Shown: one piece after another, positions 58,542 to 63,993 of the stretch
How the letters are laid out: the number at the start of each line of letters is the position of its first letter
Numbering within the stretch: position 1 is the stretch's first letter
DNA from: Telluribacter humicola
Lineage (GTDB): Bacteria; Bacteroidota; Bacteroidia; Cytophagales; Spirosomataceae
Direction: 5' to 3'
Length of the DNA: 64,000 nt
Assembly: GCF_017355935.1 (NCBI RefSeq)
Contig: NZ_JAFIQT010000002.1
Coordinates: forward strand, 744,001 to 808,000
Program-made: the position numbers and the translations under genes
Notes under the pieces: model-generated
Database searches by the model: none
The model's input: only the letters and a program-made list of their open reading frames with translations
What the model was told of the DNA's origin: nothing

Positions 58542-58615
58542 GGTCCCGTAGCTCAGCTGGATAGAGCATCTGCCTTCTAAGCAGACGGTCACAGGTTCGA
58601 ATCCTGTCGGGATCA
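58542..58615 (+). tRNA. tRNA-Arg (UCU)
   Basis: Acceptor GGTCCCG (58542-58548) pairs with CGGGATC (58608-58614) with one G-U, discriminator A. Anticodon stem TCTGC/GCAGA with loop CTTCTAA, anticodon TCT. T arm ACAGG-TTCGAAT-CCTGT. The phage-type genes begin directly after it, so its 3' end is the probable attachment site. Confidence 0.97.
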
Positions 58616-58629
58616 CAAACAGATAAACA

Positions 58630-58801: not shown

Positions 58802-59851
58802 TTAGTTCAGCGAAAATTTCAGCGAAGTAGACAGATCGGCAGAAACCGGGATGATCCGTTCCGGTTCGGCCATCAGGCCCAGGGCCGTTTCCATCCGGTC
58901 GGCTTCCTTGCCCCAGAGCAGGCCGGTCATACGCCGCTCCTCCGACTTGTATTCATAGAAGTTGTTTAGGTAGGAGGTGATCCCGTTGTAAGCCCACCAG
59001 GCAGACATTTCGGGAGCTATGTCCTGACCTACCCCCTGATGGCAGTAGGCTATGACGTCCGTGACCATTTTCTTTTTCTGGGTACTGAGCAACTCCTTAT
59101 GACTGACACCCTGGGCGGCCTGTTTGATCTCGTCCGAGTCAAAGAATACATTACCTATATAATCGTAGAACTGCTTCTGGGTAAGACGGGTCTTTGCCAT
59201 CCTATTATATATATAGGTAGCGCGCTCTTCATTCTGTGGCAGCGCTCCCAGTATTCGGAGGGCTTCGTAGTATTTGGACTGGACCTGTGGGGTATGGCGG
59301 ATGACAATCTTCTGCGTGAACTTTCCCTTTCGTAAGCTCAGATTCAGGGTATTGTTGCAGACTACACGAACGGTGGTAAAGTAAGCCATGGCCGAAAGGT
59401 GACCGTCGTGGCCGTTGGCCATGACCATATACTGATAGACTTCATCCTGCTTGCCGATCACCATTGGGGTTTTGCGCCGGCAGCAGACAAATACCTTGGC
59501 GCCGCCTTCCAGGCAGCCCGCCGTTTCAATGATTAGTTCGCCTTTCTCCACGACTTCATCGATCAGCCCGAAAGCTTCCCGATTCTGCAGGGGGGTGTAC
59601 TTGCGTCCCAGCTGATCACCCAGTATCCGTTCGTTGTCGGTCCGGAAGGAAAAGAAGCTGGTAGTACTCTCTACGATCTCTCCCGAAGGCAAATGGTGGT
59701 GGTTGGGGAGCTTTTCGACGGTGAAGTCCAGATTCGACAGCAGCAGGGCTTCGTTGATACTCATTTCCTGCTCGACGATGGTACCGAGGTTGTGCCACGG
59801 CTTTTCCCTCAGCGACACGAAGTCACTGTTTCGTTCAATGTTGTGTCCCAT
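58802..59851 (-). CDS. DUF932 phage/plasmid protein
   Basis: A 349-residue protein using the ATG at 59851 (M-G-H-N-I-E-R-N); a frame to 59884 exists but the family normally starts like this. It carries the DUF932 pattern: R-E-K-P-W-H-N-L-G-T-I-V at the N-terminus, G-R-K-Y-T-P-L-Q-N, V-V-C-N-N-T-L and R-H-T central, and a C-terminal W-W-A-Y-N-G-I-T-S-Y segment. This TIGR03299-type family is widespread in phages, plasmids and integrative elements; its biochemical role is unknown. It is divergent from the ParB-like gene with a perfect inverted repeat in its leader. Confidence 0.92.
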   Translation of the reverse strand: MGHNIERNSDFVSLREKPWHNLGTIVEQEMSINEALLLSNLDFTVEKLPNHHHLPSGEIVESTTSFFSFRTDNERILGDQLGRKYTPLQNREAFGLIDEVVEKGELIIETAGCLEGGAKVFVCCRRKTPMVIGKQDEVYQYMVMANGHDGHLSAMAYFTTVRVVCNNTLNLSLRKGKFTQKIVIRHTPQVQSKYYEALRILGALPQNEERATYIYNRMAKTRLTQKQFYDYIGNVFFDSDEIKQAAQGVSHKELLSTQKKKMVTDVIAYCHQGVGQDIAPEMSAWWAYNGITSYLNNFYEYKSEERRMTGLLWGKEADRMETALGLMAEPERIIPVSADLSTSLKFSLN

Positions 59852-59860
59852 ATTCTTTCT

Positions 59861-59891
59861 ATTAATTTTGATTTGACTTATCAAAATTAAT
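59861..59891. promoter_or_regulatory. 31-bp inverted repeat between divergent phage genes
   Basis: Perfect arms ATTAATTTTGA (59861-59871) and TCAAAATTAAT (59881-59891), 9-nt spacer, 10 nt upstream of the DUF932 start and 56 nt from the ParB-like start. Geometry of a repressor operator controlling the divergent pair. Confidence 0.6.
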
Positions 59892-59946: not shown

Positions 59947-60504
59947 ATGACCATAACATTACCCCAAAAACAGTATATGGAACTTACCATTGATCAGAAG
60001 CTACTTGATAGTTTACCGACCCTTCGGCTTTCGGAGATGGAGTGGCTACAGGGGAAGTTAAAAGAGCTCCTGCCTAACGAACGGCAAAAGCTCAAAGAGA
60101 GTCTGGAAAAGCGCGGCTTTAAGGTACCCTTCTTTATCTGGCAGGACGGTCAGTACAACTGGATCGTAGACGGTCACCAGCGTCATCTCCTGCTGTCGGA
60201 GGAGGGGTTCGCCGAGACAGCCTTCCCGGTGGTCTTCGTGCAGGCTGCCACGTTGAAAGAAGCCAAAGAGCTGGTCCTGCTGATATCCTCCAGGTACGGG
60301 ACCGAAAGCAAGGATGGTTTTGCCGAGTTCATGGCCGGTCTGGACGCCGAGTTTATCAAGTTGGCTACCACGTTTGATGGCCTGCTGGATCTGGATATAC
60401 CGGATGATTTAGATATCATAGAGGAAGACCCCAAAGAAACCAAAGAACTTGATGATGACATCGAAACCAAACACCGTTGCCCCGAATGTGGATACGAATG
60501 GTAA
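59947..60504 (+). CDS. Phage ParB-like nuclease-domain protein
   Basis: A 185-residue protein with the ParB/Srx fold core: F-I-W-Q-D-G-Q-Y-N-W-I-V-D-G-H-Q-R-H-L at about 67-85 (the D-G-x-x-R motif), followed by helices (A-T-L-K-E-A-K-E-L-V-L-L-I-S). An acidic stretch (about 150-172) leads to a half zinc ribbon, C-P-E-C-G-Y-E-W, at the end. Such proteins stand next to DNA methyltransferases in many phages. Its last about 50 nt overlap the start of the next gene in another frame, implying translational coupling. The role in the cassette, perhaps DNA binding or nicking, is inference. Confidence 0.85.
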   Translation: MTITLPQKQYMELTIDQKLLDSLPTLRLSEMEWLQGKLKELLPNERQKLKESLEKRGFKVPFFIWQDGQYNWIVDGHQRHLLLSEEGFAETAFPVVFVQAATLKEAKELVLLISSRYGTESKDGFAEFMAGLDAEFIKLATTFDGLLDLDIPDDLDIIEEDPKETKELDDDIETKHRCPECGYEW

Positions 60505-61162
60505 GGACTTTTCGTTCGATCGCATTGAAGGCTTTGACGAGCACATTGCCCTGTCGGTACCGGCCTATAAGGATATTCAGCGGGCGGTGCGGGGCATTGT
60601 CTCTTACTTTCTGGATCAGCAGGGGTCGGTGGTCTATGATCTGGGATGCTCCACTGGTGAAACACTTCGCCGCCTGGCCGAGCGATTTGGTGCTGATCAT
60701 CATTACGTGGGATTCGATATAAGTCAGAACCTGCTGCCTGCCAGATCGGAGCCGCCGATTACTTACCATTGCCAGGACATTACCCAGCCTGGTATTTTTA
60801 TGACGGGGCGGGTGAACGTCATCATCTCCCTGTTCACGTTGCAGTTCCTTTCGATTGAAGCCCGGCCCAAAGTACTCAAAGCGGCTTATGATGCCCTGAA
60901 GCCCAATGGCGCCCTGATCGTGACCGAAAAGGTATACCTGCCGATGGGCTTGTTTCAGGAGATATTTACCTTCTCTCACTACGATATGAAGGCCGAGCAC
61001 TTTACCCATGATCAGATTCTGGAAAAGCAGTTTGTCCTCCGTCAGATCATGAAGCCCCTGAGTGAGGCCGAGAACCTGCAGATGTTCTACGCGGCCGGAT
61101 TCACGAAGGTGGAGACCTTCTATCAGAACCTGAATTTTAAGGGTTGGCTATGCGTCAAATAA
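60452..61162 (+). CDS. CmoA-like carboxy-SAM synthase homologue (phage)
   Basis: A 236-residue class I SAM-fold enzyme whose closest recognisable relative is CmoA, which uses prephenate to turn SAM into carboxy-SAM (CxSAM). By hand alignment to E. coli CmoA: F-D-E-H-I then S-V-P-A-Y39, V-Y-D-L-G65-C-S67, F-D89-I, D109-I110, F-T-L-Q-F-L, L-K-P-N-G-A-L-I-V-T-E-K, and F-Y-Q-N-L-N-F at the end. Odd: the Asn132 and the carboxylate-contacting Arg199 positions appear as L127 and Q193, with R197 four residues on. An ATG at 60455 is the alternative start. It overlaps the ParB-like gene upstream by 53 nt and the DNA methyltransferase downstream by 13 nt. CmoA homology is strong; CxSAM production is inference. 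CmoB, its usual partner in tRNA modification, is not in the window. Confidence 0.8.
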   Translation: MMTSKPNTVAPNVDTNGKDFSFDRIEGFDEHIALSVPAYKDIQRAVRGIVSYFLDQQGSVVYDLGCSTGETLRRLAERFGADHHYVGFDISQNLLPARSEPPITYHCQDITQPGIFMTGRVNVIISLFTLQFLSIEARPKVLKAAYDALKPNGALIVTEKVYLPMGLFQEIFTFSHYDMKAEHFTHDQILEKQFVLRQIMKPLSEAENLQMFYAAGFTKVETFYQNLNFKGWLCVK

Positions 61163-62226
61163 CACCACAAGGATACGGATACGTACCCAGCATGGCCGAG
61201 GTGAATGCGCTACCCAAATCCGGAAAGGTCATTTCTTTATTCAGTGGGGTGGGGGGCAGCTCCCTGGGCTACAAAATGGCGGGATGGCAGGTACTGGCTT
61301 CGGTAGAGTTTCTGGATTACCAGGCGCGGACCTACCGAAAGAATCATATCGGTACCCGGGTCTATGAGCAGGATATCCGGAAGATGGATCCAAACAAGGT
61401 AATGGCGGAGCTGGGGCTGAGGCCGGGGGAGCTGGATATTCTGGATGGCTCCCCTCCCTGCTCCAGCTTCTCGACGGCCGGCAAGCGGGAGAAGCTGTGG
61501 GGAAAGAAGAAAAGCTACGGCAACCGGACGCAACGGACGGATGACCTTTTCTTTGAGTACACCCGCTTCCTGAGGATCATGCAGCCGAAGGCCTTTGTGG
61601 CGGAGAACGTAAAGGGTCTGGTGATGGGGAAAGCGAAGGGATACTTTAAGAAGATATTCCGGGAGCTGGAAAGCTGTGGGTATGTGGTGAAGGCCCGGGT
61701 ACTGAACGCCAAGTACTACGGTGTTTCCCAGGGGAGGGAGCGTCTGATCTTTATCGGCTATCGGAAGGACCTGGGCATGGTACCCAAACATCCTGCGCCC
61801 AGCCGGTATGTCATTCCGCTCGGCAAAGTCATGCATGGGCTGCCTCTACCTGGTGAACCGCTCAAACCTCTGCGGGGGAAGGGGTTGACTGTATACGAGC
61901 TTACGAAGGTGGGGGATAAGTTTGATACAGCCTACCTGAAAGCGTTTGGGAAGCGGAACATGTACACCCACTACCGGCTCTCCCCCTTCAAGCCAGCACC
62001 CACGCTGACCACCAGCCCGACCTACTACCACTGGGACCGGCCGCGGGTACTGACTGTATCGGAAATGAAGCGTATCACTACCTTCCCGGATGATTTTATT
62101 CTGCTGGGTACGTTGGCAAACCAGTACGAAGCCTGTGGCAGGACCGTGCCTCCCCTGATGATGAAGGCGATTGCGGAGGGGATCAGGAAGGATATTGGGG
62201 AAACTATCAAAAGGAATGATAATTAG
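61150..62226 (+). CDS. Phage DNA cytosine-C5 methyltransferase with Arg in motif X
   Basis: A 358-residue Dcm-type enzyme from the ATG at 61150 (a TTG at 61144 is the alternative). Motif I F31-S-G-V-G-G, motif IV P-P-C104-S-S-F-S with the catalytic Cys, motif VI E152-N-V, motif VIII Q194-G-R-E-R, then a short target-recognition region (about 215-290), and motif X G-R331-T-V-P-P. In the family this last motif is nearly always G-N-x-V-P-P; here the Asn is Arg (codon AGG at 62140-62142). The start lies inside the last codons of the CmoA-like gene. Lone methyltransferase: no restriction endonuclease adjacent. The cofactor may be CxSAM rather than SAM. Confidence 0.93.
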   Translation: MRQITPQGYGYVPSMAEVNALPKSGKVISLFSGVGGSSLGYKMAGWQVLASVEFLDYQARTYRKNHIGTRVYEQDIRKMDPNKVMAELGLRPGELDILDGSPPCSSFSTAGKREKLWGKKKSYGNRTQRTDDLFFEYTRFLRIMQPKAFVAENVKGLVMGKAKGYFKKIFRELESCGYVVKARVLNAKYYGVSQGRERLIFIGYRKDLGMVPKHPAPSRYVIPLGKVMHGLPLPGEPLKPLRGKGLTVYELTKVGDKFDTAYLKAFGKRNMYTHYRLSPFKPAPTLTTSPTYYHWDRPRVLTVSEMKRITTFPDDFILLGTLANQYEACGRTVPPLMMKAIAEGIRKDIGETIKRNDN

Positions 62227-62282: not shown

Positions 62283-62354
62283 TGCGGGGTGGAGCAGTAG
62301 TAGCTCGTCGGGCTCATAACCCGAAGGTCAATGGTGCAAATCCATTCCCCGCAA
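62283..62354 (+). tRNA. Phage tRNA-Met (CAU), initiator-like
   Basis: Acceptor TGCGGGG (62283-62289) pairs fully with CCCCGCA (62347-62353), discriminator A, no encoded CCA. Anticodon arm TCGGG-CTCATAA-CCCGA gives CAT, with the three consecutive G-C pairs of initiator tRNAs, and D-stem GAGC/GCTC has the initiator A11-U24 pair. Unlike E. coli fMet, positions 1-72 form a U-A pair. T loop TGCAAAT is unusual. Confidence 0.9.
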
Positions 62355-62399
62355 CAGAAGTCCTTCGGACTTGGTCCGTACGCCCTAAGGGCAGGCAGG

Positions 62400-62472
62400 G
62401 GTGGAGATAGCTTAACGGTAGAGCACTGGGCCGGGAGATGCCTGGAGGTTAGGTTCGAATCCAGCTCCACTA
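62400..62472 (+). tRNA. tRNA-like gene with abnormal anticodon and T arms
   Basis: D arm GCTTAACGGTAGAGC and T loop GGTTCGAATCC are clear, and GTGGAG pairs with CTCCAC of the 3' end. The anticodon stem CTGGG/CCTGG closes a 10-nt loop and the T stem keeps only two G-C pairs. Isotype cannot be assigned. May be decayed or phage-specific. Confidence 0.55.
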
Positions 62473-62561: not shown

Positions 62562-62579
62562 AATAGTTTGGACAACACG

Positions 62580-62649
62580 GCGGAGATAGCTCATTTGGTA
62601 GAGCGCTAGACAGCTAATCTAGAGGCGTAGGTTCGAATCCAGCTCCGCA
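62580..62649 (+). tRNA. tRNA-like gene, anticodon loop GCU, short variable arm
   Basis: GCGGAGA (62580-62586) pairs with six bases of GCTCCGC (62642-62648). Anticodon stem CTAGA/TCTAG closes the 7-nt loop CAGCTAA, giving GCT at 34-36 but with A rather than U at 33. The variable arm is short, unlike tRNA-Ser. The T stem is two bases short, as in the preceding tRNA-like gene. Confidence 0.6.
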
Positions 62650-62768
62650 ACTACTCCGAAACCCAGAGCAGGGGGGCTGACGGGCCGTCCGAACCCTGCA
62701 AAGGAAGACGCAGTCAAGGCCAGCTGCCGAGGAGTATGAGTAGGTTAAAGGTTTAGGAATAGTCAGAA

Positions 62769-63393: not shown

Positions 63394-63492
63394 ATACCCA
63401 TCCGTGAAAAAAGTGGAGGAGGGGGGTGTTTTCTGTATTACCCATAGTGCTAACTTTGATAAGTTTACTTGCAACCCATAACAACTTGCAAC

Positions 63493-63993
63493 ATGCCGTT
63501 CAGTACTGAAGAAGAATTAGAGGTCCGATTGAATCAGGTATCTGCCCTGTATCTGAAAGGAATGCCTCAATATAAGATCGCCGAGAAGGTGGGGGTATCG
63601 CCCTCCCAGGTGAGTCGTGATCTGGATATGTTGCGGGATAGGTGGAGGCAGGTGAATATGGATAATATGAACGACATTATTCTCGAGCAGCTCAATAAGC
63701 TCGATGTAATGGAGAAGGAGCTTTGGGAGGCATGGGACCGTAGTAAGCTTGATTATAAGGAGACGCGAATTAAGGGGAAAGGAAAGGCGAAGAAGAAGGA
63801 AGGGGAGGAGGAAGGAAGAGAGGAGACCCAGAATTCCTTACAGGGGGAGGTGACCAAGATTACCAAGGAAAAGGAACCGAATGTGGGCTTTATGGTCGCA
63901 CTCTTACAGCTGATGGAGCGACGATCCAAGTTACTTGGAATGGATGCCGGCCTGCAGACCAATGAGAAGATTACCGTGACGATCAAAGCCTGA
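63493..63993 (+). CDS. Terminase small-subunit-like phage protein
   Basis: A 166-residue protein from the ATG at 63493; the frame is open from a TTG at 63469, less likely. An N-terminal HTH (Y-K-I-A-E-K-V-G-V-S-P-S-Q-V-S-R-D-L) is followed by a helical segment with E-K-E-L-W-E-A-W-D-R-S-K, a Lys/Glu-rich linker and L-L-Q-L-M-E-R-R-S-K-L-L-G-M-D-A, a combination seen in small terminase subunits that bind the packaging site. The repeat CTTGCAAC occurs twice just upstream (63468-63492). Its TGA overlaps the next start codon. Confidence 0.65.
   Translation: MPFSTEEELEVRLNQVSALYLKGMPQYKIAEKVGVSPSQVSRDLDMLRDRWRQVNMDNMNDIILEQLNKLDVMEKELWEAWDRSKLDYKETRIKGKGKAKKKEGEEEGREETQNSLQGEVTKITKEKEPNVGFMVALLQLMERRSKLLGMDAGLQTNEKITVTIKA

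Follow-up and report, generated by a model that had tools for sequence, protein, structure and literature searches.

A CmoA-CmoX cassette in a Cytophagales prophage that probably writes 5-carboxymethylcytosine into DNA

Introduction

A natural route to 5-carboxymethylcytosine (5cxmC) in DNA was published in December 2025 for Synechococcus phage S-B43 (PMC12783734), the only source in which our literature search found such a phage system described. Its CmoX (SpCmoX, PDB entry 8YF3) was assayed as a DNA C5-carboxymethyltransferase that makes 5cxmC and accepts only carboxy-S-adenosylmethionine (Cx-SAM); Arg350, which replaces Asn304 of M.HhaI, holds the carboxymethyl group (PMC12783734). The AsnB-like CmoY of this phage amidates the acid with glycine, and the glycine amide, not 5cxmC, was reported from S-B43 phage DNA (PMC12783734). 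Here we describe a related locus in Telluribacter humicola. The window, a stretch of 64,000 nucleotides (nt), covers positions 744001-808000 of contig NZ_JAFIQT010000002.1 (C17) in a 6.56 Mb genome. Three overlapping same-strand genes close inside the left end of a prophage encode a ParB-like protein, a CmoA-like protein and a cytosine-C5 methyltransferase (C5-MTase), and are followed by genes for tRNA-Met and tRNA-Ser.

With a probability of roughly 0.87, we read the last two protein genes as a prophage CmoA-CmoX cassette in which CmoA makes Cx-SAM and CmoX writes 5cxmC into DNA. A CmoA-fed C5-carboxymethyltransferase is the best-supported reading because the closest solved relative of the methyltransferase is 8YF3, the decisive arginine is kept, CmoA co-occurs with related enzymes and not with a control set, and no CmoB exceeds the cut-off in the genome. 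Natural 5cxmC being already published, the window is a new example of a known system, and its branch may well be included in the 5,615 CmoX candidates of PMC12783734, the main text of which does not contain the words prophage, temperate or Bacteroid. The locus extends the system of 2025 to a temperate phage residing in a Cytophagales chromosome, with no S-B43-type ligase found.

The S-B43 and window loci share homologous CmoX (42%, with the Cx-SAM contacts including R350 kept) and CmoA (31-32%, with the same moved arginine), genes in one overlapping run, and the lack of CmoB, for S-B43 as described in PMC12783734. They differ in that S-B43 has CmoY between CmoA and CmoX, whereas CmoY was not found for the window; that a ParB-like gene overlaps cmoA in the window, whereas no ParB is annotated within 6 kb of cmoA in S-B43; and that the window belongs to a prophage integrated in a Cytophagales bacterium and carrying a second C5-MTase, an ordinary one. 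M.MpeI N374K is comparable in that a basic residue at the motif X Asn gives Cx-SAM use, but it is engineered, carries Lys instead of Arg and has a CG target (PMC12783734). With the CmoA-CmoB pathway of Escherichia coli, which leads to uridine 5-oxyacetic acid (cmo5U) in tRNA, the window shares the CmoA fold and presumably the reaction, but it has no CmoB above the cut-off and Arg199 of E. coli CmoA is not conserved.

The methyltransferase carries the motif X arginine of CmoX

The genes and codons on which the argument turns are as follows.

59947..60504, plus strand: ParB-like protein, 185 aa (phrog_498, E 2.4e-10; phrog_620 ParB-like, E 8.4e-9)
60452..61162, plus strand: CmoA-like protein, probable Cx-SAM synthase, 236 aa (TIGR00740; phrog_4752; PDB 1im8/4gek/4iwn)
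61028..61042, plus strand: CmoA codons Q193 to R197; by alignment, Gln at the E. coli Arg199 position and Arg at that of E203
61150..62226, plus strand: CmoX-like protein, probable DNA cytosine C5-carboxymethyltransferase, 358 aa (8yf3, E 1e-71)
61459..61461, plus strand: codon of catalytic Cys104 (SPPC), aligned with SpCmoX C98
62140..62142, plus strand: codon of Arg331, which lies in the GRTVPP of motif X and corresponds to SpCmoX R350 and M.HhaI N304

The methyltransferase, whose gene overlaps cmoA by 13 nt, has the features of a C5-MTase (PF00145, E 9.5e-60; SPPC with Cys104; ENV at 152-154; motif X) and is 42% identical to SpCmoX. Its best solved relative by sequence is 8yf3 (E 1e-71), and 8yf3 is also the top fold for the predicted model (E 7.4e-30, next fold 4.3e-22; mean predicted local distance difference test score, pLDDT, 84.5). 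By alignment, the SpCmoX Cx-SAM contacts F25, E47, F48 and D69 are kept as F31, E53, F54 and D75. Within a nine-row alignment that includes SpCmoX (A3), F31, E53, F54, C104 and R331 are invariant, and the D75 column is Asp in eight of nine rows. Judged from these alignments and models, the window methyltransferase is very probably a CmoX. The motif X arginine is the strongest single piece of evidence; its placement beside the cofactor, like that of R197 in CmoA, was derived from alignment, and the structure models served for fold ranking only.

An earlier note, made from the letters alone, had described both reading frames with their lengths and overlap, the methyltransferase motifs, and the CmoA residues G65, C66, S67, D89, D109, I110, FTLQFL from 128 and FYQNLNF from 223, all of which hold. 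Its proposal that Cx-SAM from CmoA feeds the paired enzyme gains support from the relation to 8YF3, Arg331 and the co-occurrence of CmoA described below, the chemistry having been published already. The overlapping ParB-like gene, the integrated state of the prophage and the motif X arginine had been overlooked.

The CmoA-like protein resembles SpCmoA

The CmoA likeness of the 60452-61162 product is not due to chance. It matches TIGR00740 (CmoA) with 91.8 bits (E 5e-26) and phrog_4752 with E 6.6e-55, and its best PDB chains by sequence, 1im8, 4gek and 4iwn, are all CmoA/YecO. The six best PDB folds for the predicted model (mean pLDDT 78.1, with only about 54-57 for the helix bearing Q193 and R197) all come from the same three entries. 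The protein fits an SpCmoA-like subset, a grouping of our own that combines the CmoA fold, linkage to CmoX and Arg at the E203 column.

The host seemingly makes no Cx-SAM of its own, since the window CmoA is the sole TIGR00740 match above 30 bits in the genome. Prephenate is presumably made in the host, as a prephenate dehydratase gene is present. CmoA would then turn host SAM and prephenate into Cx-SAM, and CmoX, with Arg in place of the motif X Asn, would bind the carboxylate of this cofactor. Cys104 would attack cytosine C6 and the carboxymethyl group would move to C5, so that 5cxmC is written into DNA at a short motif; the acid is possibly the final base, no AsnB-type ligase having been found. 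The enzyme activities, the cofactor choice and the modification of phage DNA are what we infer from sequence comparison and predicted models. The base may protect phage DNA from host restriction.

CmoA accompanies arginine-type methyltransferases in viruses and bacterial genomes

To judge the linkage, the best 80 of at least 594 IMG/VR relatives, retrieved with alignment A3, were compared with a control set, the best 80 of 550 relatives of the C5-MTases from Flavobacterium phage tooticki6-1 and Bacteroides phage LoVEphage. Alignments were needed for this purpose, as IMG/VR scans by single window proteins or by the second prophage methyltransferase gave no matches. The motif X column was Arg in all 80 CmoX relatives (79 GR, one AR), and CmoA was present in the fetched stretch of 78 of them, L102 and L122 being those without it. 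In the control loci, this column was Met in 80 of 80 and CmoA was found in none. Arg versus Met over these 160 viral loci offers a one-residue rule of thumb for annotation, with at least two CmoA-linked exceptions.

In bacterial genome contigs, a script called the motif of 68 loci as Arg-type (39), Met-type (20) or other/unreadable (9), and CmoA lay in the fetched stretch of 35, none and two of these, respectively. Three Verrucomicrobia metagenome-assembled genomes each carry several Arg-type CmoX genes with CmoA, which would fit either numerous prophages of one kin or an element present in several copies (L251, L253 and L256 in one; L254, L260, L262, L263 and L266 in another; L258, L264, L265, L268, L270 and L271 in the third).

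ParB-like matches were likewise found in 65 of the 80 CmoX viral loci and in none of the 80 control loci, with a CxxC within the last 20 aa in 63 of the 65. The window protein ends in HRCPECGYEW, which contains such a tail; its gene shares 53 nt with the start of cmoA, and no Pfam match was obtained at 0.01. ParBc proteins have been reported with CmoX, their role being left open (PMC12783734).

In a FastTree analysis that leaves out L239, the window CmoX forms one clade (support 0.986) with L087 and L094 from IMG/VR and with the enzymes of Spirosoma arboris (G576) and Larkinella terrae (G534), both members of the order Cytophagales, whose genomes were assigned to the same family as the host; support for the whole Arg group was only 0.353 in this rooting. 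The related pairs of S. arboris (L073/L240), L. terrae (L074/L277), Hymenobacter fodinae (L239), L087 and L094 resemble the window in having CmoA before CmoX, overlapping frames and the motif X Arg, although their CmoX proteins are only 46-53% identical to that of the window. Like the window, L087 and L239 have a ParB-like gene upstream, detected by search; in L044 and L045 such a gene was recognized by eye only. Terminase-like genes follow the cassette in L073, L074, L087 and L094 (by eye). L240 and L277 differ in giving no match to two ParB queries, and L094 starts inside cmoA. What sets the window itself apart from these relatives is that two tRNA genes separate CmoX from the terminase genes.

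Observations that weigh against carboxymethylation

Several observations speak against the reading given above. The R350N exchange abolished both activities of SpCmoX (PMC12783734), and the arginine alone is therefore no proof of function. The 91.8 bits of the window CmoA lie below the curated TIGR00740 cut-off of 193.3. SpCmoA, assayed as a Cx-SAM synthase, also falls under it (115.6 bits), and for this reason we class the window protein as SpCmoA-like and not as a TIGR00740 equivalog; the same holds for all eight further CmoA proteins that we scanned from phages, prophages or CmoX-linked loci, which stayed under the cut-off, while the chromosomal CmoA of genus g178 exceeds it (251.4 bits).

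Arg199 of E. coli CmoA, described as bridging the Cx-SAM carboxylate by a salt bridge (PMC3663124), is missing from the window CmoA, which has Q193 at this position. R197, four residues further on, aligns with E. coli Glu203, and SpCmoA shows the same exchange, with Glu at the Arg199 column and then Arg at the E203 column. We infer that R197 may take over the salt bridge from Arg199. A moved arginine is not general, as scoring of these two columns in a 94-row CmoA alignment showed: 19 rows (window, SpCmoA, S-CRM01 and others) have not-Arg then Arg, 18 show Arg then Glu, and two show Lys then Glu; one row is truncated, and in the remaining 54, Glu precedes Ser, Ala, Gly, Cys or Val. The commonest type of CmoX-linked CmoA therefore has neither arginine.

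The linkage counts of 78 and none per 80 loci come from top-scoring, related loci that are not independent trials, many of their contigs ending close by; crude clustering at 70% identity gave 45 groups for the 80 CmoX loci and only 13 for the 80 controls. Among the 39 Arg-type genome loci, the fetched stretch of four lacked CmoA. In addition, a C5-MTase with Gly at the Arg column goes together with CmoA in two staphylococcal phages: in Staphylococcus phages vB-SscS-F1 and SPbeta-like (L023 6512-7519, L024 5648-6646) Gly-Gly replaces Gly-Arg, so that Cx-SAM use there, if any, depends on other residues. Finally, the lysogen may not express the cassette.

Bare 5cxmC as a possible final base

Bare 5cxmC is a plausible final base in the window prophage, since searches of the genome revealed no ligase of the AsnB type. 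The domain PF00733 (Asn_synthase) had no match genome-wide, the control search being positive in 11 of 14 genomes, and SpCmoY as a query gave none in a search without positive control. No ATP-dependent ligase family was recognized among the 64 of 87 prophage open reading frames (ORFs, at least 70 aa) scanned with Pfam; the other 23 comprise 16 shorter than 100 aa and seven longer ones. The order Cytophagales loci L239, L240 and L277 also lack a ligase-like gene within 4 kb. We tentatively suggest, at somewhat below even chances, a ligase-free ParB-CmoA-CmoX lineage in temperate phages of Cytophagales. In this lineage 5cxmC, bare and negatively charged, would be the final base instead of a handle, and the carboxylate-binding arginine of CmoA would have moved by one helical turn. 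This raises the questions of whether bare 5cxmC is ever nature's final base and whether the lysogen's own chromosome is marked.

Alternatively, 5cxmC might be only an intermediate that an unrecognised prophage or host ligase amidates, as CmoY does with glycine in S-B43. Such a route would agree with the glycine amide of S-B43 DNA, with the many prophage proteins that have no Pfam match, and with the ligase-like gene in 29 of the 80 CmoX viral loci (10 of the 21 loci with more than 3 kb on both sides). We consider it rather unlikely in view of the ligase searches in the genome, the prophage and the Cytophagales relatives. The position of CmoA points the same way: a ligase-like gene occurs in none of the eight loci with CmoA upstream of CmoX, the order of the window, compared with 28 of the 70 with CmoA downstream (and one of the two without CmoA). 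The Fisher p-value of 0.045 for this difference is too small and the evidence weak, because three pairs among the eight loci are 84-100% alike.

Neither an ordinary methyltransferase nor tRNA modification fits the locus well

It is highly improbable that the methyltransferase makes ordinary 5-methylcytosine and has CmoA as an unrelated neighbour. Membership in PF00145 and matches to PADLOC type II methyltransferase models would be expected for such an enzyme, but its motif X has exchanged Asn for Arg as in SpCmoX, which uses Cx-SAM only (PMC12783734), and the strong co-occurrence with CmoA has no counterpart in the control set. Least probable is a role of CmoA in tRNA wobble modification (cmo5U) during infection, a reading we dropped because no CmoB was found above the cut-off (best genome match 69.5 bits against 275, a cut-off that one of 14 control genomes exceeds); the homology to a tRNA pathway enzyme and the nearby phage tRNA genes speak for it, but these tRNAs, found by ARAGORN, are Met-CAT and Ser-GCT, not U34, and cmoA overlaps the CmoX gene. 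Both the absence of CmoB and the lack of U34 in the nearby phage tRNAs had been pointed out in the earlier note and were borne out. A CmoA-fed CmoX remains the preferred reading. The tRNA-Arg(TCT) at the left end of the prophage does have U34, but it is a host gene serving as attachment site.

The cassette lies in an integrated prophage

Around the cassette, the following features were located.

58604..58616, plus strand: probable core of the left attachment site, CTGTCGGGATCAC, at the 3' terminus of host tRNA-Arg(TCT) 58542-58616
58802..59884, minus strand: DUF932 / TIGR03299 phage-plasmid protein (PF06067, E 1.2e-40; TIGR03299, E 1.6e-48)
62283..62355, plus strand: phage tRNA-Met(CAT) (ARAGORN, Rfam)
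62579..62651, plus strand: phage tRNA-Ser(GCT) (ARAGORN, Rfam)
63469..63993, plus strand: helix-turn-helix (HTH) protein, small terminase subunit by position only, directly 5' of the large terminase

The carrier of the cassette is an integrated prophage of about 70 kb at tRNA-Arg in the chromosome of a Cytophagales host. Two exact copies of the 13-base core were present in the 120 kb examined, one inside the window and the second at C17:872732-872744, about 70 kb away; this right copy lies some 140 nt past the end of a tyrosine integrase gene. The window's right end falls within the prophage. The earlier note had spoken of a phage, which has to be amended to a prophage.

Downstream of the cassette lie terminase-, portal-, holin- and peptidase-like genes. 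The HTH protein has HTH matches, its best PHROG being named RNase E, and the gene after it weakly matches terminase large subunit phrog_9 (E 7.2e-7), with a Pfam terminase match below the cut-off. A special linkage of the Cytophagales loci to the large terminase (TerL) was considered and rejected, since seven TerL queries, most of them named by eye, gave matches in equal numbers of CmoX and control loci (22 of 80 each); within 3.5 kb downstream the counts were 11 of 44 for CmoX and 6 of 53 for the controls, which is not clearly special. The DUF932 gene diverges from the cassette and has no known membership in it. Another tRNA-like stretch (62401-62471), the third, is located between tRNA-Met and tRNA-Ser and scores 26 bits, under the Rfam gathering score of 29.

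The second C5-MTase of the prophage (C17:856183-858342, 719 aa) keeps Asn, the ordinary residue, in motif X; its long middle region contains repeated segments, as judged by eye. The same prophage also carries an AbiH-like abortive infection gene (C17:863543-864742; PF14253, E 2.6e-28).

CmoA-like genes in other settings

Alcaligenes phage Afa-NA1 has a CmoA-like gene (L025 4917-5669) near genes annotated as NUDIX hydrolase, dTMP kinase and DNA adenine methylase, and no C5-MTase is annotated within 5 kb of it. The first-ranked CmoA match in the phage collection, MT835562 'Bacteriophage sp.', was set aside, as its cluster is not phage-like by eye: the CmoA-like gene (L017 6001-6795) lies among two ABC-transporter-like and two dehydrogenase-like genes, with no C5-MTase among the ORFs listed.

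A chromosomal CmoA-like gene occurs in genus g178, which has 47 matching genomes. With 251 bits, the protein of L048 (G453:C3:307077-307757) exceeds the TIGR00740 cut-off, and Arg199 is conserved in it. In this locus and in L050 (G486:C1:442452-443132), cmoA is flanked by fatty-acid-hydroxylase-like and isoprenylcysteine carboxyl methyltransferase (ICMT)-like membrane methyltransferase-like genes, as judged by eye. The 27 loci of this family, L046-L072, gave no match to C5-MTase models in flanks of about 1.5 kb, and CmoB was under the cut-off in all five g178 genomes searched. Possibly, this neighbourhood represents an undescribed user of Cx-SAM.

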